IMG/VR virus record: IMGVR_UViG_3300010412_000009
Coordinates: 1 to 64,000 of that record
Direction: 5' to 3' (one strand)
Source: a virus
Length of the DNA stretch: 64,000 bases
Both the position numbers and the translations under genes were made by a program. A model generated the notes under the pieces. The model had not been told where the DNA came from and did no database searches. It saw nothing but the letters and a program-made list of their open reading frames with translations. Numbering within the stretch: the stretch's first letter is position 1; every line of letters starts with the position of its first letter. Below, piece by piece: positions 4,169 to 46,581 of the stretch.

Positions 4169-4903
4169 TTATTTTGATAAATAATGTGTTAATTTATTCA
4201 TTAAGTCAATAGATTTGGATAATGATTTCCCTTTTTCATTTTCTCTAATTTCCTCTTCCAAATTCTCCTCATACATGTGTCTATCATCTTTATTAAAGAA
4301 CACATAAGCACCTGGTGTGGAAGGTGATGATACTAAATCGAAACAAATTAATTCAAAATCTTCTTGAACTTCATTATATTCACCTTTTTTTGCCAAAGAA
4401 CCGACACCTCTTGATGATATACCTAAAGTAACCCCTTGTCTTAATAAATTTGCTGCTTGATCTCCTTTACAGGAAATAATCCCCATCTTATGAAATGCTG
4501 GTGATGTTAATAACCTTAATTTACCCATTAAGATATTATCATCCCACCATATTTCTGTTATAATGTGTGAAGTCCTATCTAAATCAATTAATGATGAATC
4601 GGGATGATTTAATTCACTTAAAGCGACTCCCTTATCAATCATTTTTTGATATTTTTCGGATTCTCTTTTTAAGATTTTCTCACCATAAAGACGCTTATTT
4701 CTGTTGGGCACTCCGTATTTTTGTAATACGGCATACATTTCAAAAGGTTTTGAATAATCGAGGAAATTTTTAGACTCTTCGATTATTTTTTTATTTTCAA
4801 GGAGATCGGGTGAAATATATCCCGCATCTTCCTCGATCAATATCCCAAAGCCGCTTTCATTTGGTTTTAATATTTTCATATCACATAATATTTTCAATAC
4901 CAT
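4169..4903 (-). CDS. 21: Prohead core protease, T4 gp21-like
   Basis: 244 residues, near the usual length for this family. It carries the S-H protease signature of herpesvirus/T4 prohead proteases: ELNHP around residue 97 gives the catalytic His, and GISSRGVGS around residue 157 gives the catalytic Ser. The region DFELICFDLVSSPSTPGAYV is also characteristic. In T4 the enzyme matures the head by cutting capsid, scaffold and internal proteins after (I/L)-x-E. This activity matters here because many other proteins in the window carry such sites at their N-terminus. Start chosen at the ATG about 23 nt from an upstream ATATTTATA motif; the second Met (residue 9) is an alternative. Confidence 0.92.
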   Translation of the reverse strand: MVLKILCDMKILKPNESGFGILIEEDAGYISPDLLENKKIIEESKNFLDYSKPFEMYAVLQKYGVPNRNKRLYGEKILKRESEKYQKMIDKGVALSELNHPDSSLIDLDRTSHIITEIWWDDNILMGKLRLLTSPAFHKMGIISCKGDQAANLLRQGVTLGISSRGVGSLAKKGEYNEVQEDFELICFDLVSSPSTPGAYVFFNKDDRHMYEENLEEEIRENEKGKSLSKSIDLMNKLTHYLSK

Positions 4904-15151: not shown

Positions 15152-16066
15152 ATGAAGTTTATCATAAAGGAAAGTCAACTAAGTGTATTATTATCTGAAA
15201 ATGAGGATATTGATAATATTAACTATAGCGACAAGGAATTGTCAGATATGATATTCTCAAAATTAAATGGATATCGTCAAGAATTGGTGGATGAAGTTAA
15301 GTATGGAATATATGATATCCTCAGATTAATTAAAATATATAGGAGGCAAACTAAATTAGACATAACCACAACCAAATTCTATCAAAATAGTTTAAAGAGT
15401 TCCGATATTTTATTGAAATATGGTATTATTTCATATTCTGAACACAATTCCTTTGGTAAAAAACTTCTTACCAGATCCTTAAATTTAGTTTATGATGATG
15501 AAGGAAATTGGGATATTATAAATAAATTGAATACTAACTACACTGCACTCGCCAGGATAATTACAGATATATTAATGGAAAATCTATCCAAACCAAATAC
15601 AAGTGAAAAATTTCAAAATTTTATTAACGATATCTTACATTCCGAAACTTTAAAAGAAAAAAACATAGGTTATAAGTTAAAAAAATTATTAAAATGGTAC
15701 TTTACACCTAAAAGGTTGGGATTATTAAAAAATTATACCCATATGATTTCTGACACATCATCTAGTGGTGATAATAGTGAACATCACATATCAAATTTTT
15801 TAGAAAGTAAAGGTTATGAGATTTTAGACATTCCAGGTGAAGGTAATTTTGTTGACATGATGTATTCTATTGATATGATAGTAAAAACACCAAAAGGTAA
15901 TGTTGTCACAATTCAAATAAAAACAAGTGAATTTCAATTAAATAATTTTATACAAGATAAACTGAATAATCCGAGCAGTAAAAAGTATAGATATGTTGAT
16001 ATTATATTAATACCATATAAAAATGGTATTAAAGGATATAATTTTAATTTAAATAAAGAGATATAA
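15152..16066 (+). CDS. PD-(D/E)XK-like nuclease with capsid-targeting-like N-terminus
   Basis: 304 residues. It opens with MKFIIKESQLSVLLSENED, matching the shared N-terminal cassette of several proteins here and offering LSE near residue 16 as a prohead protease site. The C-terminal third looks like a PD-(D/E)XK nuclease: EHHISNFLESKGYEILDIPG, then YSIDMIVKTPKG with the key Asp, and VTIQIKTSEFQ giving the Q-x-K motif. Such domains cut DNA. The middle is helical. A packaged DNase could attack host DNA on entry; that role is inference. It is a rare plus-strand gene and ends at a shared terminator. Confidence 0.75.
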   Translation: MKFIIKESQLSVLLSENEDIDNINYSDKELSDMIFSKLNGYRQELVDEVKYGIYDILRLIKIYRRQTKLDITTTKFYQNSLKSSDILLKYGIISYSEHNSFGKKLLTRSLNLVYDDEGNWDIINKLNTNYTALARIITDILMENLSKPNTSEKFQNFINDILHSETLKEKNIGYKLKKLLKWYFTPKRLGLLKNYTHMISDTSSSGDNSEHHISNFLESKGYEILDIPGEGNFVDMMYSIDMIVKTPKGNVVTIQIKTSEFQLNNFIQDKLNNPSSKKYRYVDIILIPYKNGIKGYNFNLNKEI

Positions 16067-16097: not shown

Positions 16098-16553
16098 TTA
16101 ATTAATCTTAATTGTCGTTGATTTCTTTTTTGTTTCCTCATTTTTTTTCATTCCAGGGATAAATAACGTTAGAATCCCATCCGCAATTGTTGCTTCCACT
16201 TTATTGAAATCAATTTCACCTGTTGGAAGACTGAAATCAATGGATTCTGTTCTTTTTTCTGAACCCAAATTAACTTCTCTTTCACCTGAAACTGTTATTT
16301 GTCGATTTTCACCTGAGATATTAAGATTTTCTTTGTTGAATCCAGGTACTTTTATCAAAAAGTAACACCCATCATCAAGACATACTGTCTCATAGGTAAT
16401 ATCTCTATTATCCTCACCTTTCATCATTGGAGTACGTTTTGTTTCGTAATACATCCAAACAGGGTTCATAAATTCATTTCTGGAATAAAAATCATGCCCA
16501 AAAAATTGCTCAAAAATGTTGTCAAAAGATCCAAAATAATTTTTCCTTCTCAT
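16098..16553 (-). CDS. Small heat shock protein, Hsp20/alpha-crystallin family
   Basis: 151 residues, normal for the family. The alpha-crystallin domain runs from about residue 50 to 140: DGCYFLIKVPGFNKENLNIS, then ITVSGERE and the signature ADGILTLFIPG, with the C-terminal I-x-I (TTIKIN) that docks between subunits. It is an ATP-independent holdase. Hsp20 proteins are known in T4-like cyanophages, where they are suggested to help structural assembly. It is divergent from the Clp unfoldase gene, with about 170 bp between them. Confidence 0.93.
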   Translation of the reverse strand: MRRKNYFGSFDNIFEQFFGHDFYSRNEFMNPVWMYYETKRTPMMKGEDNRDITYETVCLDDGCYFLIKVPGFNKENLNISGENRQITVSGEREVNLGSEKRTESIDFSLPTGEIDFNKVEATIADGILTLFIPGMKKNEETKKKSTTIKIN

Positions 16554-16724: not shown

Positions 16725-18728
16725 ATGTTGGATTATATGGATGACGGACCAAGTAAAGTAAGAAGTTCAGGTGGACAATCACAAACTCCAGTTCTTGACA
16801 ATTTTAGTCGGGATTTGATTAAACTAGCCGAAGAAGGTAAATTAGACCCTGTTATTGGTAGAGATGATGAGATTAAACGTATTGCCCAAATACTAAGTAG
16901 AAGAAAGAAAAACAACCCAATTATTATTGGAGATCCTGGATGTGGTAAAACTGCAATTGTTGAGGGTTTGGCGATTAAGATTCAGAAAGGTGAATGTCCT
17001 CGTAACTTGGCGGATAAACGTATCGTGACATTAGACATCACATCATTAGTGGCAGGTACAAAGTACCGAGGTCAATTTGAGGAACGAATGAAAATTATTA
17101 TGGATGAACTTAGAGACGATCCAAACACCATCATCTTCATTGATGAAATTCATACAATTGTTGGTGCCGGTAATGCCTCAGGTTCTTTGGATGCTTCAAA
17201 TATTTTTAAACCCGCATTGGCAAGAGGTGAATTACAATGTATTGGTGCGACAACACTTGATGAGTATAAAAAACACATCGAGAAAGATGGTGCTCTTGAG
17301 AGGAGATTTCAAAAAATTATTGTCGATGGTACAACAAAAGAACAGACACTAACGATTTTAAAGAATATCAGACAATATTATGAAGATTATCATAAAGTTT
17401 CTTATTCTGATGAAATATTAGAGAAATGTGTTGAGTTAGCAGACAGATATATCACGGATAGAGAATTTCCCGATAAGGCAATTGATATTTTGGATGAAGT
17501 TGGATCAAGATGCAAAGTAGACATTAAATCTCCAACAATTATTGACGAATTAAAGAAAGAGGCTCAAAAAATTAAAGACGAAAAAATCAATGTAGTTCGA
17601 GAACAGAGATATGAAGAGGCTGCCAACTTAAGAGATAAGGAAAAGAAAATTCTAATCAAGTTAAAAACTGAGAACGAGAAGTTTGAAGATTCTTTGACTA
17701 AAGAAAAGAAAAAAGTTACACTGGATGTACTATATGATGTAATTTCAGGGATATCCAAAATACCAGTTCAAAAACTTTCATCAAACGAAACAAAAAGACT
17801 TAAACATCTCAGTGATAAATTGAAAGAGAATGTGATTGGGCAAGATATTGCTATCGATAAAATATCAAGATCAATTAGAAGACATAGATTAGGTATTAAT
17901 AACCCAAACAAACCCATTGGGTCATATATCTTTTTGGGTTCAACAGGTGTGGGCAAAACATTAATGGCAAAGAAAATTGCCGAGGAAGTATTTGGTAGTT
18001 CTGATGCCCTAATCAGAGTTGATATGTCTGAATATCAAGAAAAGCATTCAATATCAAAATTAATTGGTTCTCCTCCTGGATATATTGGTTACGATGATGG
18101 AGGACAATTAACAGATAAGGTTAAGAATAATCCATACTCTGTTATTCTTTTTGATGAAATTGAAAAGGCAAATTCAGATGTATTCTCAACATTACTTCAA
18201 GTTCTTGATGATGGACATATGACAGATGGTTTGGGAAGAAAGGTTAATTTTAAGAATACCATAATCATAATGACATCAAACTTAGGGATTAAAAAATTAC
18301 AAGAGTTTGGTAAAGGTATTGGTTTTGATACAAATAACGGATCCTTTGTCGATGCTGACATTAGAGAACGTGAATTGAAGAAAGAACTTAAAAAGTTTTT
18401 TGCTCCTGAATTTTTAAATCGTATCGATGATATTATAGTATTTAATAATTTAAATCAAAACGATATTAGTAAAATTGTTGAAATTGAACTTAAAATTTTA
18501 TCTGACAGGATGGATTCCTTGGGTTATAAGATATCTTTTGATGAGAGTATTATCAATCACATATCTGAAGTCGGATTTGATGATGTATATGGAGCAAGAC
18601 CTCTAAAACGAGCAATTCAAAGTGAAGTTGAAGACTATATTTCCGATATGATAATTGATAATAAAATTAAAAAATCAAAATCATATCAGGTTAAATACGA
18701 CTCGGAATCCAAATCTTGTACTATATAA
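16725..18728 (+). CDS. ClpA/ClpC-type AAA+ unfoldase lacking the N-domain
   Basis: 667 residues: two AAA+ modules but no Clp N-terminal repeat domain (usual ClpC is about 820). D1 has [15 protein letters not shown] near residue 73 and [12 protein letters not shown] near 140; a short UVR-like helical linker ([19 protein letters not shown]) follows; D2 has [19 protein letters not shown] near 404 and [15 protein letters not shown] near 475. FGKGIGFDT around residue 525 looks like the IGF loop that docks on ClpP. It would unfold substrates and feed a peptidase; a phage ClpP lies at 25331. Missing the N-domain, it must recognise substrates differently from host ClpC. Confidence 0.92.
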
Positions 18729-18758
18729 AAAAAAGCCGTCAAATGACGGCTTTTTTTT
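18727..18758. terminator. bidirectional intrinsic terminator
   Basis: AAAAGCCGTCAAATGACGGCTTTT hairpin with flanking A and T runs between the convergent Clp and peptidase genes. Confidence 0.95.
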
Positions 18759-19617
18759 AATCCCAAAGACTATAATATCGTCTTAACTTATTGTTATGGT
18801 TATATAAATTATCCCCCTCATACTCGTAGTTTGAATATCCCAAACTTTCAATCATTCTTCTACCCAATTCAACCCCATTGAAAGTATCCTTTACTACTAC
18901 ATATTCATCTCTTCTGTGCATATTATAATATCCTATTGATATATTAATACACGAAAAATTGAATAGTTTTTTTAATGAATAAACGTCAGTATATGGATGT
19001 CTCATATATTCAAGATGATTTCCAACACCCTCTTTCAATATTTGATCGCATGTTTTGAAGAAATCCGAATTCCTATCAAATAATACCTCACCAAAACACA
19101 CTTCAGTAACCATGTAATCTTCTGGTGCGTCAAATTGTATTGCATATCCGACATTCTTAAAAAAGGACGGATCGGCATTTTTAGAACCAATACAACCTAC
19201 TTCCTCAGACACAAAAAACGCCGCCTTCAAATAGGGTAATTCCTTTAGTAGTGTGAGACATGCGAATACACCACACTTATCATCACCACCAATACCTACA
19301 GGATATCCTGCATCGTTATACGCCTTCAAGGATAGTGATAAATTACCTTGAGAATCTTTAAGAGTTTCCTCTCTTACGTTAATAGTGTCGATGTGATGTA
19401 CGGTATCCGTATGCGACACAACACAAGGGTAATACTCAGGCTCATTGTCATCTATTTTTTTTGTTGCATAAACATTCAAATAAGTATCGACATAATATTC
19501 AATATTATTATCTTTAAGCCATTGAGTAATATACTCAACCATTCGATGTTCTTCAAATGTTTTTGTGGGTATTGATAATACCTCTTTCAGGAAATCTAAA
19601 TCATACATACTATTCAT
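18757..19617 (-). CDS. M20/M28-type metallopeptidase (peptidase T-like)
   Basis: 286 residues, shorter than PepT (about 410), apparently lacking the dimerisation lid. Zinc-site motifs are in order: VVSHTDTVHHID near residue 68, GIGGDDKCGVFA near 110, FFVSEEVGCIGS near 135, QFDAPED near 160 and NMHRRDE near 236. Such enzymes trim N-terminal residues from short peptides. Its neighbour is the Clp unfoldase gene and the phage has ClpP, so it may finish degradation of Clp-released peptides; that link is inferred. The start is ATG 19617; the second Met (residue 4) is possible. Confidence 0.85.
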   Translation of the reverse strand: MNSMYDLDFLKEVLSIPTKTFEEHRMVEYITQWLKDNNIEYYVDTYLNVYATKKIDDNEPEYYPCVVSHTDTVHHIDTINVREETLKDSQGNLSLSLKAYNDAGYPVGIGGDDKCGVFACLTLLKELPYLKAAFFVSEEVGCIGSKNADPSFFKNVGYAIQFDAPEDYMVTEVCFGEVLFDRNSDFFKTCDQILKEGVGNHLEYMRHPYTDVYSLKKLFNFSCINISIGYYNMHRRDEYVVVKDTFNGVELGRRMIESLGYSNYEYEGDNLYNHNNKLRRYYSLWD

Positions 19618-19631
19618 ATTAAATATTTACA

Positions 19632-19663
19632 CAAAGATACGTTTTTTTTTTGACATTCACAAA
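19632..19663 (-). promoter_or_regulatory. Bacteroidetes-type promoter for the metallopeptidase
   Basis: On the minus strand TATCTTTG (-7 element, complement of 19632-19639) is preceded after 20 nt by TTTG (-33, complement of 19660-19663). The consensus of primary-sigma promoters in Bacteroidetes is TTTG-N19-21-TAnnTTTG. It interleaves with the divergent tmRNA promoter. Confidence 0.8.
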
Positions 19664-19680
19664 TATTTATCGTATATTTG
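19649..19680 (+). promoter_or_regulatory. Bacteroidetes-type promoter for tmRNA
   Basis: TTTGACA at 19649-19655 and TATATTTG at 19673-19680 are separated by 20 nt, matching the Bacteroidetes -33/-7 consensus. The tmRNA 5' end is at 19702. Confidence 0.82.
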
Positions 19681-19701
19681 TATTGTGTTCTTTGAAAATA
19701 T

Positions 19702-20126
19702 GGGCCTAAATGGAATCGACGTGGTATTGATGTAATTAAGGCAGCTCGCAGTGTAATTCTATCCTGCGTTAAAAAGGAGAATTAATCAATAAGTGGCAAT
19801 ATCGCTTCTTCTTTGGCAATCGAGGCTGTTTTAAACAGTGACGTAAATGGTGGTCGTGCTATCAGCATGGTTTCCGAGCCAGTGGCTTTTGCAGAGGCTA
19901 TTTAATCAAAATCTGCAGACTGACCTACCATGTGTAGGAACAGTAACGAATCCGTGAAAGCGGATTCTGATCCGGCCTTTACCTATGGTAAGGGACTAAC
20001 AAAGGCTTTCTTCGTAGTGCCAGTAAACAACGAAGTGGTGGAGTTGTCGGGATTCAATCCCAAATGGCTGTAATTCCTTAATTGCTGATTTATTTACGGA
20101 CGTGGGTTCGATACCCACTAGGTCCA
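19702..20126 (+). ncRNA. ssrA: tmRNA (transfer-messenger RNA) with an unusually long predicted tag
   Basis: The acceptor stem is complete: GGGCCTA at 19702-19708 pairs with TAGGTCC at 20119-20125, discriminator A, no encoded CCA. AATGGAATCGAC follows the 5' stem as in other tmRNAs, and the 3' end has a proper T arm (GTGGG TTCGATA CCCAC). PK1 is visible: CGCAG 19747/CTGCG 19764 with TAATTCT 19754 pairing to AGAATTA 19778. Eleven nt later the AATAAGT sequence precedes the resume codon, best read as GGC 19795. That frame stays open for 36 codons to TAA 19903, and this stop lies in the loop of a TGCAGA/TCTGCA hairpin, just as in E. coli helix H5. Further helices follow (PK2-4 region). tmRNA frees stalled ribosomes and tags the product for proteolysis. 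Confidence 0.93.
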
Positions 20127-20129
20127 CTA

Positions 20130-25330: not shown

Positions 25331-26008
25331 ATGGAAAATTGCAATTATTTAGGACGTGAATTTCAGAACTATTATGTTAATCACTTGGGAAACGGATCAC
25401 TGGATCTTCACTATTTTGAAAATTCGATGACGCCTTACATCTTAGAAGAGAGGGAATTACGAGCAACACAGATTGATATTTTCTCTCGGTTAATGAGAGA
25501 TAGGATTTTATGGGTTGCGGGTCCTGTCAACGACAGAATGTCAACAATAGTACAAGCACAATTAATGTACTTGGATTCTGTAGATACTATGGATATAACA
25601 ATGCACATTGATTCTCCTGGTGGTTCTGTAAAGTCAGGGTTGAGTATGGTAGATGTGATGCATTATATAAATTCAGATATCAAAACTGTGAATACAGGAT
25701 TGGCGGCTTCTATGGGTTCTGTATTATTGGCGGCAGGGACTAAGGGTAAGAGATCATCTCTAAGATTTTCCAGAACAATGCTACATCACTCATCCGCAGG
25801 GTTTCAGGGAAATATACAAGATGCCACAATAACATATGAACAATGGCAAAGATATAATCAAATTTTATTTGAACTTCTAGGCGATTTTTGTGGTAAAGAT
25901 CCCGAACAAGTAAAAAAAGACGCTGAAAGAGATTTTTGGTTGAGTAGTGAAGAGGCTCTTAATTACGGGTTAATAGATAATATCATTCAAAAAAAAGGAG
26001 GGAAATAA
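25331..26008 (+). CDS. clpP: ClpP-type serine protease
   Basis: 225 residues. ClpP landmarks: HIDSPGGSVKSGLSMVDVM near residue 96, the nucleophile in GLAASMGSVLLAAG near 125, catalytic His in RTMLHHSSAGFQG near 150 and the acidic residue in DAERDFWLSSEEA near 198. It forms the barrel in which an AAA+ partner degrades unfolded proteins. An N-terminal extension of about 25 residues precedes the core and could be a propeptide. With the phage Clp unfoldase (16725) and tmRNA it could make a self-contained proteolytic route. T4-like phages also use ClpP-type enzymes rarely for prohead maturation, but gp21 is present here for that. Confidence 0.92.
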   Translation: MENCNYLGREFQNYYVNHLGNGSLDLHYFENSMTPYILEERELRATQIDIFSRLMRDRILWVAGPVNDRMSTIVQAQLMYLDSVDTMDITMHIDSPGGSVKSGLSMVDVMHYINSDIKTVNTGLAASMGSVLLAAGTKGKRSSLRFSRTMLHHSSAGFQGNIQDATITYEQWQRYNQILFELLGDFCGKDPEQVKKDAERDFWLSSEEALNYGLIDNIIQKKGGK

Positions 26009-35704: not shown

Positions 35705-36727
35705 TTACTCTCCAAGAGTCGTAATTATTTTATCTACCACCAAATACGGATTTGCATTTGCTGCAGGTCTCCTATCTTCTAAATACCCTTTCCATCCGTG
35801 ATTTATAGTATATACTGGTATTCTAATTGACGCTCCACGATCTGAAACACCATAAGAAAATTTATCAATATGTTGAGTTTCGTGTTTTCCTGTTAACCTT
35901 TTATCGTTTTCACTACCATACACCGCAATATGTTCTTTATGTTTTTTACGCAATTTTTCACATATATCAATAAACAACTCTTGACCGCCGACTTCTCTTG
36001 TTTCATAATTTGAAAAGTTAACATGTAATCCTGCACCATTCCAATCACCATCAAGAGGTTTAGGTTTAAGTGTTATTCTAACTTTAAATTTTTCAGATAT
36101 TTCAAATAAAAGATATCTTGATACAATAAGATCATCCGCGGCTTTCTTAGGTGTAACCCCAAAAACTTGATATTCCCACTGTCCTTTTAATACCTCAGCA
36201 TTTGTACCTGTTAAATTAATACCAACTTGGAAACATCTTGTAGCGTGAACTTCAACAAGATCTCTTAAACTAACTTCATCATAACCAACGCCACAATAAT
36301 ATTCACCTTGTTCTTTTGCACGTCCAGTTTCATCAAATAATCCGTAAGGATGTCCCTTACTATCCAATATTGTATATTCTTGTTCAAACCCAAACCAAAA
36401 CGAATTCGTAAATTCAGATTCTATAATACGATTCCTATGATTGGATTTGTGAGGAGTCCCATCTGCATTATATACTTCACATAATACAATGTAGGTGTTA
36501 TAACTTCCAGTATCTTGATAAACACGAACAGGTTTTAATATACAATCAGAATCATTTCCTTCTGCTTGCTTTGTTGATGACCCGTCAAAAGACCACTCAG
36601 GTACGGTAGATAACATAAAAGGTTTAAAATCATCTGACGGATAATATTTAGTTTTAGATCTAATATTTGGTTCTGTTCCATATCCGTCCAACCAAATATA
36701 CTTCAAAGTTACAACTCTATCATTCAT
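35705..36727 (-). CDS. glnA: Glutamine synthetase, type II
   Basis: 340 residues, full length for the GSII (eukaryote-type) class also found in Bacteroidetes. Landmarks: YIWLDGYGTEPNIRSKTKYY at the N-terminus, PEWSFDGSSTKQAEGNDSD near residue 39, FGFEQEYTILDSKGHPYG near 112, GDWNGAGLHVNFSNYETREV near 226 and SDRGASIRIPVYT near 284. All substrate and metal residues I can place (the E-x-E pair, N-G-A-G-x-H-x-N, R-G-A-S-I-R) are present, so it is probably active, making glutamine from glutamate, ammonia and ATP. A very unusual phage gene; could support nucleotide synthesis or rewire host nitrogen sensing. Confidence 0.94.
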   Translation of the reverse strand: MNDRVVTLKYIWLDGYGTEPNIRSKTKYYPSDDFKPFMLSTVPEWSFDGSSTKQAEGNDSDCILKPVRVYQDTGSYNTYIVLCEVYNADGTPHKSNHRNRIIESEFTNSFWFGFEQEYTILDSKGHPYGLFDETGRAKEQGEYYCGVGYDEVSLRDLVEVHATRCFQVGINLTGTNAEVLKGQWEYQVFGVTPKKAADDLIVSRYLLFEISEKFKVRITLKPKPLDGDWNGAGLHVNFSNYETREVGGQELFIDICEKLRKKHKEHIAVYGSENDKRLTGKHETQHIDKFSYGVSDRGASIRIPVYTINHGWKGYLEDRRPAANANPYLVVDKIITTLGE

Positions 36728-39021: not shown

Positions 39022-39609
39022 TTATTGTTTCTGAATATTATCATCAATCAATACGTTCATTGGAATTTGTCCATTATACAAACTATCCACCTTTTCATCA
39101 TGATCAAGTAAAAATGTTAATATTTTATCCTTAATACCTGTTTGCTTAATCCCCTCAGACACTTTTGGACAATGAACAAAGTTTTCTAAGTTAGAAAGAT
39201 TTAGATCATCGACACAAACCCAAGATGTTACATCATTCGACTCCAAAAATTGTTTAATTTCAATAACTCTAATGTCTTCAAGGTTATTACCATTCTTAAC
39301 ATCATTAAGTGATGGAGTGTATTCCAAGGGCATTTTTACCACACCCTGAGATTTATAATACTCTCTCATCTCTTCAAGAGTTGCATGTTTTTTCCAATCC
39401 GAACTAATTACAATTTCTGCATTTGTTTTGATTAGAATTTCATTAAGAATTGCAACTGCCTTTCTATCAAAATTATCAAAACGGTGTAATACACTTAATT
39501 CAGACGAACTTTGTCCTCGTTTTCTTCGATGTCTTTGTTTAGTAAATCTACTTCCAAACTGTCTGGATGTTACGATTACCCCATCATGATCCAAAAAAAT
39601 TACTTTCAT
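39022..39609 (-). CDS. HAD-fold phosphatase, RNA-repair operon
   Basis: 195 residues. FLDHDGVIV near residue 5 is the HAD nucleophile motif D-x-D-G-V, and AEIVISSDWKKHATLEEMRE near 64 is motif II in the form seen in RNA-repair-associated HADs. VCVDDLNLSNLENF near 131 supplies the third motif. The start codon overlaps the ligase stop (ATGA, 4 bp), so it is the last gene of a kinase-ligase-phosphatase unit. It could remove 3' phosphates, the role of the phosphatase half of T4 PseT; inferred from context. Confidence 0.8.
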   Translation of the reverse strand: MKVIFLDHDGVIVTSRQFGSRFTKQRHRRKRGQSSSELSVLHRFDNFDRKAVAILNEILIKTNAEIVISSDWKKHATLEEMREYYKSQGVVKMPLEYTPSLNDVKNGNNLEDIRVIEIKQFLESNDVTSWVCVDDLNLSNLENFVHCPKVSEGIKQTGIKDKILTFLLDHDEKVDSLYNGQIPMNVLIDDNIQKQ

Positions 39610-40634
39610 AGTTTAGTAAATTCAGGTCTAATTGAATTCCATATCATATTATCAATATTATGTCCATTTCTAAGAGCGAAAAAATATCTCTTATTTGGAT
39701 TATTGATTATTGATAATGCAAACTCTTTTTGTGTTACATCACCAAGTAGTTCATTAACGTTTTCATATTCAAAGATAATGCCTTTTTTCTTAGTATCAAA
39801 GTGATTTCTAAGATTATTCTCATAATCTTTTATTTTTGAATAGAATTCGTCTGGCACATCTTCAAGAAGTTGAGACATACTACCTCCATTAGATAACACC
39901 TCCCAAACTGCGGTTGTCGAGATATTTGTCATTATCTTGTGTAACCTTAAGTACTCGTCACTCTTAATCTTAACCCTATCGTTATTTGAGAACTTAATAA
40001 CAAATCCTTCAAAATTAGATCCTATCATATCCTTAAGTGTGGAATAGTCAGAAATTCCATCATATTTCCTAACAACATCCACTTTTGATTCTTTAGATAT
40101 ATCTACAATATGAGAATATGAGTGTTCTGTACCACAAATAGTCTTAACAGCACCAAGTAACACTAGTTTTTCAACATCGCCATAATTAACAACAATCCTA
40201 TTCCAAGGAGCAATAAACTCATATAGATATGTTGTATTTACATCCAAAATAGAAGTATTCATACTATCTATAATTTGTTGAGCTGCAATTGCTTGATCTG
40301 AAGTAAAAGAACCTCTAGATGCTACAACCCACCTATCATTGTAATTAAATACAATAATTAACGATCCGTCCATTTTCTCATAAACTTCAAAATCTGACGT
40401 TGGTGAGTGCATATTTTCACTAAGGTTGAAAAACTTTCTAAATGGACGACCAACAATTTCACCTGTTATTTCATTAATAACTAAGCCACGAGCCATTAAT
40501 GTGATTTCATCCCATTTACCTTCGTATTGAGTATTCACACTATAATTCCATATACTTAAAGGAAAAGATGGGTGAAATTGTGATATCACCCATCCTTCTT
40601 CTTTATATTCCCGTAATCTATTTAATAATTCCAT
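39606..40634 (-). CDS. rnlA: T4 RNA ligase 1-like (Rnl1 family)
   Basis: 342 residues, near T4 RnlA (374). Nucleotidyltransferase motifs in order: VYEKMDGSLIIVF with catalytic Lys near residue 87, VVASRGSF near 103, YLYEFIAPWNRIVVNYG near 141, GSNFEGFVIKFSNNDRVKIK near 210-232. The N-terminal LMARGLVINEITGEIVGRPF is typical of Rnl1. In T4 this enzyme reseals tRNA cut by the host anticodon nuclease. It is flanked by a P-loop kinase and a HAD phosphatase. Confidence 0.93.
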   Translation of the reverse strand: MELLNRLREYKEEGWVISQFHPSFPLSIWNYSVNTQYEGKWDEITLMARGLVINEITGEIVGRPFRKFFNLSENMHSPTSDFEVYEKMDGSLIIVFNYNDRWVVASRGSFTSDQAIAAQQIIDSMNTSILDVNTTYLYEFIAPWNRIVVNYGDVEKLVLLGAVKTICGTEHSYSHIVDISKESKVDVVRKYDGISDYSTLKDMIGSNFEGFVIKFSNNDRVKIKSDEYLRLHKIMTNISTTAVWEVLSNGGSMSQLLEDVPDEFYSKIKDYENNLRNHFDTKKKGIIFEYENVNELLGDVTQKEFALSIINNPNKRYFFALRNGHNIDNMIWNSIRPEFTKL

Positions 40635-41071: not shown

Positions 41072-41809
41072 TTATTTCTTTTTCATCGTTGGTGATAGCC
41101 ACAAATTTTTACCAAACACCGCTTCCATAAATTTAGGTTCAATAGAATCAATTTCTGAAAACAATCTAAGTGTTTTTATTGTGTCAGCACGCATCATTTT
41201 ATCAACTTCCTCTCGAATTCTTTCAACACTAACAACCAATTCAAGTTTTTCAATCAAATTCGGTTGAAACATTGCAATCCAAACTTTAGGGTCAATTCTA
41301 AATCCTTTAGTTACTGAGAACCTCAGGGCTCTCAACATTCTAAGAGGATCATCCATAAAAGTAACCTTAGGGTCCAATGGAGTGATTAGAACTTTATCTT
41401 TAAGAGCGAATTTCCCATCAAAAGGGTCGATAATATTACCATCAACATCCTCTGCCATTGCGTTTACTGTGAAATCTCTACGAATCAAATCATCTTCAAG
41501 AGTTCCAAGCTCCAAAATAGGTCTTCGTGTCCCTTCAACATACCCAACCTCTTTTCTAGCCATAACAAAATCCGCAGTAGTTCCTTCAAATTTACTACCT
41601 TTAGGGAATTTTGCTCTGATTGTGAACATATCAGGTGTTGATAAGAATATTTCAAACCCTTCAGATTCCATCCAAGATTTCATCTCAAAGAATCCTTCTT
41701 CAACAGATTTACTACAATCGTCAAGAACAAATGTAAAATCAATATCTTTAGAATCAATACCTAACAATTTGTCCCTAACACATCCACCGACTTTAAATAA
41801 TTTTGGCAT
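41072..41809 (-). CDS. CCA-adding enzyme/poly(A) polymerase-like nucleotidyltransferase
   Basis: 245 residues, much shorter than bacterial CCA enzymes (about 400). Head-domain motifs are intact: FKVGGCVRDKLLGIDSKDID near residue 5 with G-G-x-V-R-D and D-x-D, DLIRRDFTVNAMAEDVDG near 106, and DDPLRMLRALRFSV near 150. The C-terminal body and tail domains are mostly missing. It could rebuild or complete tRNA 3' ends; most tRNA genes in the window do not encode CCA. It opens an operon with kinase, ligase and HAD genes. A TATCTTTG sequence lies just upstream at 41830-41837 without a clear -33. Confidence 0.87.
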   Translation of the reverse strand: MPKLFKVGGCVRDKLLGIDSKDIDFTFVLDDCSKSVEEGFFEMKSWMESEGFEIFLSTPDMFTIRAKFPKGSKFEGTTADFVMARKEVGYVEGTRRPILELGTLEDDLIRRDFTVNAMAEDVDGNIIDPFDGKFALKDKVLITPLDPKVTFMDDPLRMLRALRFSVTKGFRIDPKVWIAMFQPNLIEKLELVVSVERIREEVDKMMRADTIKTLRLFSEIDSIEPKFMEAVFGKNLWLSPTMKKK

Positions 41810-45525: not shown

Positions 45526-46581
45526 CTATTCTCCACCTTCAATTAAAAATTTATTTGAAATAACCTTAAAACTAATACTGTTATCTCGACTTCTAACAAC
45601 AATACCCTCCCTTTCTTTATTCGGATTTAATTGAGACTTACCCTCAGCGAATGATAAGATTTCATCAATCGCTTTAGGTAATTCAAATTCACCTGATTGA
45701 AAAAGAACTGGAACTGTCTCAAGTTTAAGTTCATCTCTTACGATCTTAATAAATTTGTCATACTTAACTTTTGTTTGAGTGTCAATATCAAACAAGTTGA
45801 AAATTCTGACAGTTTGTCCTTTAATCTTATATGGATTACCTTGAATACCCTCACCAATAAGTTCACCTTGAACTGCAACATTAAAATTCAAAGATGCTAA
45901 TTTATCCTTAAGGTTTAATTGTTTCGCGACAGACCAAAAAGAGTTTGTATCTTCTTCAAGAAGTTCCAAATTTCGAGAGCATACACCAAACTCACCATTA
46001 TTGTAATAATAAGTCGCAGATGTACCATCCAGTTTTTCAGTCACATAAAACTCAAATGGAATTGACGTATTTACCCATTCTTTATATTCCTCAACAAGAT
46101 TCTGAACTCTTTCTTCATCTGTTTTTGGAATAAATGACGGAAACCATCCCTTAATTTTTCCAGACAACTGAGCAGGAATTGGTTTTTCATATTTGATAAT
46201 TCCCAACATATCGGTAACGTCCAAACCTTCAAACCAATCCATTGTCAAATTATTCGTTTTCCTCTCGTAGATAGAATATCCATCTTTAAGAGGAATAATC
46301 AATCCTTGACTAATCTGACCTCTCAATCTAATAGTCTTCAATCTAAAGCCCTCAGTTCCATCTGCTAGTTTAATATACGATGTTTTTCTCAGGAACTCAA
46401 ATTCAGGTTCAATCGGAAGAAGACTATCAATCTCACAATAAACAACCAAATCGCCCACTTTATGTCCAACATTTTTTGCAACAACAACTTTCCACCCATC
46501 AACAGTAGCCACTTCAATCATATCCGCATTTGGAATAGGTTGAATATCTTTAATTCTTCTAATTTTTGCTAATTCTCTCAT
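45526..46581 (-). CDS. RNA ligase of the DraRnl (Rnl5) type
   Basis: 351 residues. Unlike T4 ligases it begins with an OB-fold domain (AKIRRIKDIQPIPNADMIEV, KVGDLVVYCEIDSLLP), then the ligase core: YVTEKLDGTSATYYYNNGEF with the catalytic Lys near residue 185, VQGELIGEGIQGNPY near 240, EREGIVVRSRDNSISFKVIS near 325. This architecture is that of Deinococcus DRB0094, which seals nicked duplex RNA with 3'-OH/5'-P. It is the second RNA ligase of the phage and lies directly upstream of tRNA genes. Confidence 0.9.
   Translation of the reverse strand: MRELAKIRRIKDIQPIPNADMIEVATVDGWKVVVAKNVGHKVGDLVVYCEIDSLLPIEPEFEFLRKTSYIKLADGTEGFRLKTIRLRGQISQGLIIPLKDGYSIYERKTNNLTMDWFEGLDVTDMLGIIKYEKPIPAQLSGKIKGWFPSFIPKTDEERVQNLVEEYKEWVNTSIPFEFYVTEKLDGTSATYYYNNGEFGVCSRNLELLEEDTNSFWSVAKQLNLKDKLASLNFNVAVQGELIGEGIQGNPYKIKGQTVRIFNLFDIDTQTKVKYDKFIKIVRDELKLETVPVLFQSGEFELPKAIDEILSFAEGKSQLNPNKEREGIVVRSRDNSISFKVISNKFLIEGGE

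Follow-up and report, generated by a model that had tools for sequence, protein, structure and literature searches.

Bacterial one-piece tmRNAs (RF00023) typically encode a short tag with an (L/M/V)AA-type end, and the commonest tag length in a database of 97,179 tmRNA sequences is 10 (PMC11915505). Among phages, tmRNA and SmpB are reported in huge phages (Al-Shayeb et al. 2020, PMC7162821), in an account whose available part contains nothing on tag conservation or on a linkage to ClpC/ClpP. Marine phages of the Melnitz type carry a tmRNA that is permuted, in two pieces and controlled by a glutamine riboswitch, described together with a survey of phage tmRNAs and the idea of amino-acid recycling (PMC9004378). 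Mycobacteriophage DS6A has a tag-less mini tmRNA (PMC4131195, PMC11915505). Phage tmRNA, SmpB and ClpP are already known separately; the open-licence literature yielded no description of a phage-specific tag that is conserved, or of such a tag linked to phage ClpC/ClpP.

The tmRNA gene considered here lies in a stretch of 64,000 nucleotides (the window), positions 1 to 64,000 of a 69,769-base IMG/VR virus record (IMGVR_UViG_3300010412_000009). A preliminary description made from the letters alone had proposed a phage tmRNA with a visible acceptor stem, PK1 and T arm, and had suggested a search with the Rfam tmRNA models. That search bears the proposal out: RF00023 matches the window over model positions 1-374 with 71.3 bits, above the gathering score of 47, and the three structural elements are all found on reading the sequence. 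The RNA and its upstream signals comprise the following features.

19650-19680, + strand: Bacteroidota-type promoter, with TTG at 19650-19652, a 20-nt spacer and TATATTTG at 19673-19680
19688-19695, + strand: boxA-like leader TTCTTTGA, a short way upstream of the mature 5′ end of the tmRNA, placed by comparison with clade leaders
19702-20129, + strand: one-piece tmRNA (ssrA), the RF00023 match; its acceptor stem, T arm, H2 and PK1 are visible in the sequence
19747-19784, + strand: PK1 pseudoknot, 5′ of the resume codon, consisting of two perfect stems, 5 and 7 bp long, seen in the sequence
19795-19905, + strand: tag reading frame, with GGC resume codon, 36 codons and TAA at 19903-19905, placed by the resume-site matrix and the stop position
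19888-19919, + strand: H5-like hairpin with the stop codon TAA 19903 in its loop (8-bp stem 19888-19895 / 19912-19919, -7.7 kcal/mol)

The acceptor stem pairs 19702-19708 with 20119-20125 (GGGCCUA/UAGGUCC) and contains the alanine-identity pair G3.U70, formed by G 19704 and U 20123; the discriminator base is 20126. The T arm at 20102-20118 has five pairs, the D-loop-like segment reads GGAATCGAC, and the H2 stem joins 19732-19741 to 20076-20085. In PK1, stem 1 is formed by CGCAG (19747-19751) and CTGCG (19764-19768), and stem 2 by TAATTCT (19754-19760) and AGAATTA (19778-19784). The fold of the tmRNA strand beats 100 of 100 shuffles (z = -3.9). ARAGORN does not call the window tmRNA, and recovers 25 of 70 tmRNAs of the clade described below.

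The full-model match, the G3.U70 pair, the T arm, PK1 and the A at position -4 of the resume codon are shared with bacterial one-piece tmRNA, whereas the 36-codon tag with its EAI end departs from the typical short tag. Melnitz-type tmRNA has in common with the window RNA its occurrence in a phage, but is two-piece and permuted and stands in an unrelated context; a tight T-arm pattern matched only permuted tmRNAs of unrelated phages, and the window tmRNA DNA gave no similarity match among named phages. With the DS6A mini tmRNA the window RNA shares the tRNA-like domain, while also keeping PK1 and the tag frame. RNAs composed of the tRNA-like domain only, scoring above the RF00023 cut-off, were observed in the huge phages LR756508.1 (L140:1501-1612) and LR756511.1 (L141:1501-1637), which carry a full tmRNA besides this DS6A-like short RNA; the short RNAs could titrate host SmpB.

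Relatives were collected from IMG/VR by a capsid-guided scan (80 loci; tmRNA in 9 of the 50 records searched) and a peptidase-guided scan (80 more loci; tmRNA in 64 of the 78 records searched with the covariance model). Single-protein scans with the peptidase and with ribonucleotide reductase returned no matches. The tag motif of the clade is present in 75 of 80 loci, the remaining five of which end near the peptidase. The phage is T4-like, its major head protein, portal and terminase matching head and packaging PHROGs; among named phages, Flavobacterium phage immuto, Microcystis phage Mel-JY01 and the uncultured LR756508.1 (484 kb) stand nearest to it. The promoter pattern TTG-N17-23-TAnnTTTG precedes 57 of 60 distinct clade tmRNAs, against 1.5% of shuffled upstream sequences, and relatives of the peptidase occur in contigs binned with Saprospiraceae/Haliscomenobacteraceae; the host is therefore probably a member of Bacteroidota. 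A boxA-like motif recurs in 50 of the 60 distinct leaders of the clade, compared with 3.4% of shuffles. The motif TTCTTTGA, which we take to resemble the boxA of rRNA leaders, suggests that the tmRNA may undergo rRNA-like antitermination.

Some relatives (L371, L395, L401, L406, L407, L409 and L418) have a structured leader of about 75 bases between promoter and tmRNA, about 30-105 bases upstream of the latter, with a closing stem AAATCAC...GTGATTT, an inner stem GGCTCCCT/AGGGGGC and two hairpins. This leader has no Rfam match and is absent from the window; a further copy occurs in phage G001 (L255:6272), away from the tmRNA of that phage. It is possibly a riboswitch.

The alignment with related phages, which the preliminary description had called for to fix its proposed resume codon GGC 19795, favours that codon. 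The Rfam alignment sets the consensus UAAuU|GCA over UAAGU|GGC at 19795 in the window. A resume-site matrix built from 45 distinct sites of relatives, with the window excluded, gives 13.2 bits at this position (CAATAAGT|GGC), the next best score in the whole RNA being 2.7. The description had also named the frame that would displace its own, a 12-codon frame starting one base later. Translation resuming at that GCA (19796) would yield the tag AISLLLWQSRLF, short and of ordinary length, and the 11 nt from PK1 to this codon equal the spacing in E. coli tmRNA. However, the site scores -18.2 bits, has a G at -1 that is seen in none of the 45 clade sites, and leads to a stop 105 nt before the conserved GGAACAG, a distance that is 39-49 nt in most relatives (60 of 67 RNAs measured, a total that includes the window). 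The GCA frame is rejected as highly improbable. From the stop at 19903 the distance is 34 nt, which puts this stop about where those of the relatives lie. An A at -4 is present in 45 of 45 distinct clade sites and in the window as well; in E. coli tmRNA, the A at this position is essential and sets the frame (PMC2481249). An open frame of 36 codons arises in 14% of shuffles and is weak by itself, so that the case for the frame rests on the comparison with the clade. The H5 assignment is less secure: hairpins of -4 kcal/mol or below accompany 24% of clade stop codons and 17% of random positions in a simple and blunt scan. As far as sequence can decide, the resume frame at GGC 19795 is settled, and with it the earlier prediction of a 36-codon tag that does not end in LAA. 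The tag comprises 36 residues, GNIASSLAIEAVLNSDVNGGRAISMVSEPVAFAEAI (codons 19795-19902), with the C-terminus EAI; AISMVSEPVAFAEAI is one of its tryptic peptides.

A tag of 21 or 22 residues is present in all 69 relatives read and is carried by the tmRNAs of nearly every phage sampled in the clade; the 49 distinct peptides, among them GNTFAKMAALGLTREAVVVAA and GNVLDKMALLGLVKQDELVAVA, follow the consensus GN(T/V)xxK(L/M)xxxGLxREExVVxA. Three residues, K6, G11 and L12, are invariant in 56 distinct tag DNAs despite being encoded by 2-5 different codons each, the third codon positions vary most, and pN/pS is 0.50 for close pairs. Given this constancy and the pattern of substitution, the clade tag peptide looks to be under selection at the protein level. 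The C-terminal end varies between VAA, AVA, TVA, VGA, VTA, VTI, VKA and VEA; the last residue is A in most tags, and the endings are mostly V-x-A or V-A. Sampled Bacteroidota genomes have tags of 9-10 residues ending in LAA or MAA in 32 of 32 ARAGORN calls, in a sample made up mostly of best-scoring loci and biased toward typical tags. An origin of the motif in a phage protein was considered and rejected, as six-frame scans of about 450 loci show the motif nowhere but in tmRNAs.

A tree of the ClpC-like proteins encoded beside these tmRNAs places some phages with GNVLNKM-type tags (e.g. L356, L337, L348 and L360) among those with GNTFAKM-type tags, as if tmRNA genes had been exchanged between phages; several of the GNVLNKM-type phages so placed carry the structured leader. 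Long tags also occur outside the clade: unrelated IMG/VR phage tmRNAs (L059, L098, L100, L029 and L103) encode tags of 24-31 residues ending in AVAA, ALA or ALAA, so that long phage tags probably arose more than once. The tmRNA of LR756508.1, the closest named record, has, in our reading, an independent 36-residue tag, GVNNADYES...KPAAV.

Within its own clade the window tag is an outlier, with S6, A11 and V12 in place of the invariant residues and with a length of 36 residues. Its first 16 residues (GNI...) resemble the clade tag (p = 0.0004 against shuffles), the first two residues being the main support for the resemblance, which drops to p = 0.037 without them. The tag continues for 15 residues beyond the first 21 to end in EAI, the closest clade ending being VTI, found in three peptides. 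In IMG/VR, a pattern for the extra residues has no matches, and the resume-site pattern of the window has 36, none passing both the 5′ and the 3′ tmRNA motif checks; no second copy of the window's 36-residue tag was found, and it is known from one sequence. The ClpC tree places the window on a long branch within the clade, with phages bearing 21-residue tags branching earlier (supports 90 and 89). On this branching order, the window tag is most likely a late expansion of the 21-residue form, a reading to be taken with caution given the long branches and the midpoint root. The lone position of the window, its loss of K6, G11 and L12, and the 14% chance of an open frame of this length would also fit a tag region in decay, read through accidentally after an insertion in a tmRNA that is losing its tagging role. 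The acceptor stem, T arm, PK1, high-scoring resume site, promoter and leader are nevertheless all intact, and the added stretch preserves both the frame and the stop position, so that we regard decay as quite unlikely.

The surroundings of the tmRNA contain genes that may bear on the fate of tagged proteins and on the maturation of the RNA.

16098-16553, - strand: Hsp20 small heat-shock protein (PF00011, 41.8 bits)
16725-18728, + strand: ClpC-like AAA+ unfoldase of 667 aa, without N-domain and with an IGF loop (PDB; Pfam AAA_2 and ClpB_D2-small)
18757-19617, - strand: putative M42-type peptidase, between ClpC and the tmRNA (PHROG 4191 peptidase, E 2e-38)
25331-26008, + strand: ClpP peptidase with Ser/His/Asp triad (PF00574, 193.6 bits; PDB ClpP, E 8e-46)
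41072-41809, - strand: poly(A) polymerase/CCA-adding enzyme head domain (PF01743, 69 bits)

The unfoldase has ClpC as its best PDB match (E 1e-211), with the match starting at ClpC residue 155, and combines two AAA+ domains with a ClpP-docking loop of the (I/V/L)GF type; an (I/V)GF loop is present in the ClpC-like unfoldase of 8 relatives. The triad segments of the ClpP, AASMG, MLHH and ERDFWLS, align to PDB ClpP. In their best PDB match, docking loop and triad, the two proteins are like bacterial ClpC-ClpP; unlike bacterial ClpC, whose N-domain binds adaptors, the phage protein yields no N-domain in the Pfam scan. The Pfam M42 score of the peptidase falls narrowly under the cut-off (21.3 vs 23.2). 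ClpC, peptidase and tmRNA occupy the same order and strands (ClpC and tmRNA forward, the peptidase reversed) in all 71 loci that contain both ClpC and tmRNA, and the window fits this block; within one clade, such synteny is partly due to common descent. ClpP lies 5 kb from the tmRNA in the window and is present in 7 of 7 records over 280 kb. This ClpP is not the prohead protease, for which a separate S77-type gene lies at 4169-4903.

Of the seven records over 280 kb, two encode SmpB: in G002 the gene lies about 7.3 kb from the tmRNA, in G101 about 0.5 kb. The others presumably use host SmpB; no SmpB is found in the 69.8-kb record of the window, a genome fragment. A large phage with a tmRNA and with SmpB in its relatives is comparable to the huge phages described in PMC7162821. 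CCA is not encoded at the 3′ end of the tmRNA, where CTA occupies the last three bases, and the protein with the poly(A) polymerase/CCA-adding head domain could mature this end.

The window also encodes a glutamine synthetase with both Pfam domains (35705-36727, - strand), two RNA ligases, one of the T4 Rnl1 type and another (39606-40634 and 45526-46581, - strand), and 12 tRNA genes called by ARAGORN between 44955 and 63886; the ligases and tRNA genes fit a set for tRNA repair and translation upkeep. A motif of the ISExEKxxIL type stands at the N-terminus of up to nine window proteins and is seen in none at an internal control position (ORFs near 15152, 27588, 35273, 37154, 37578, 48452, 49595 and others). 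The motif is possibly a signal for capsid targeting or processing.

We interpret the locus as a working tmRNA of a large T4-like Bacteroidota phage, whose tag is most likely read by the phage ClpC-ClpP, and assign this reading a probability of about 0.66. During infection, the RNA would receive its CCA from an enzyme of host or phage, be aminoacylated with alanine by the host, and be carried into ribosomes stalled on broken mRNA by host SmpB or, as in two relatives, by phage SmpB. It is predicted to append Ala and the 36-residue tag to the stalled proteins. Judging by gene proximity and motifs, their degradation would most likely fall to the phage ClpC-ClpP, with host Clp proteases contributing, and the peptidase might recycle the fragments. 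The long tag might serve as an unstructured handle for a ClpC without N-domain, and the benefit to the phage would lie in ribosomes and amino acids freed while the mRNAs of the cell are cut.

The main doubt about the mechanism concerns which protease reads the tag. A phage-read tag gains plausibility from the ClpC-like unfoldase and ClpP that these phages encode themselves. The suggestion in the preliminary description that the tag might be a different degron, or one disregarded by host proteases, stays conjectural. The endings of the relatives, mostly V-x-A or V-A, would also allow the clade tag to be an ordinary small hydrophobic C-terminal degron, with host ClpXP/ClpCP acting on it as on any ssrA-like tag and with the phage ClpC and ClpP nearby for other purposes. 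Ends such as VAA, AVA and TVA and the reliance of most clade phages on host SmpB agree with such host degradation. The most conserved tag residues are, however, the internal K6, G11 and L12 rather than the C-terminal pair, the clade tags differ wholly from the 9-10-residue tags of the hosts, and ClpC accompanies the tmRNA in 71 of 71 loci; reading by host proteases is a possible explanation that we doubt on balance. The tag might instead be no mark for destruction at all, ribosome rescue leaving a long tail that is neutral or has a role in localisation, in packaging or as a shield against host proteases. The window ending EAI and the relatives' VTI, VKA and VEA match known degrons poorly, and the conserved motif within the tag could be a binding site for some partner. 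The prevalence of a terminal A in the clade and the fixed neighbourhood with an unfoldase, together with ClpP, argue against a non-degradative tail, which we consider unlikely. A more specific form of the phage-read tag, in which the phage ClpC-ClpP recognises the internal motif rather than a C-terminal LAA, apart from host degrons, and the window represents a further change of this code, is put forward tentatively, as possible rather than probable.

With a clade tag unlike those of the hosts and adjoining genes for an unfoldase and ClpP, these phages may run a tag-and-destroy pathway of their own. The LAA rule for tmRNA tags is not universal, and the clade tag motif detects phage tmRNAs that escape ARAGORN and, at the cut-off applied, sometimes also the Rfam model. 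The conserved tag of the clade, unlike those of the sampled hosts and standing beside an unfoldase and ClpP, makes the question of why phages carry tmRNA testable.
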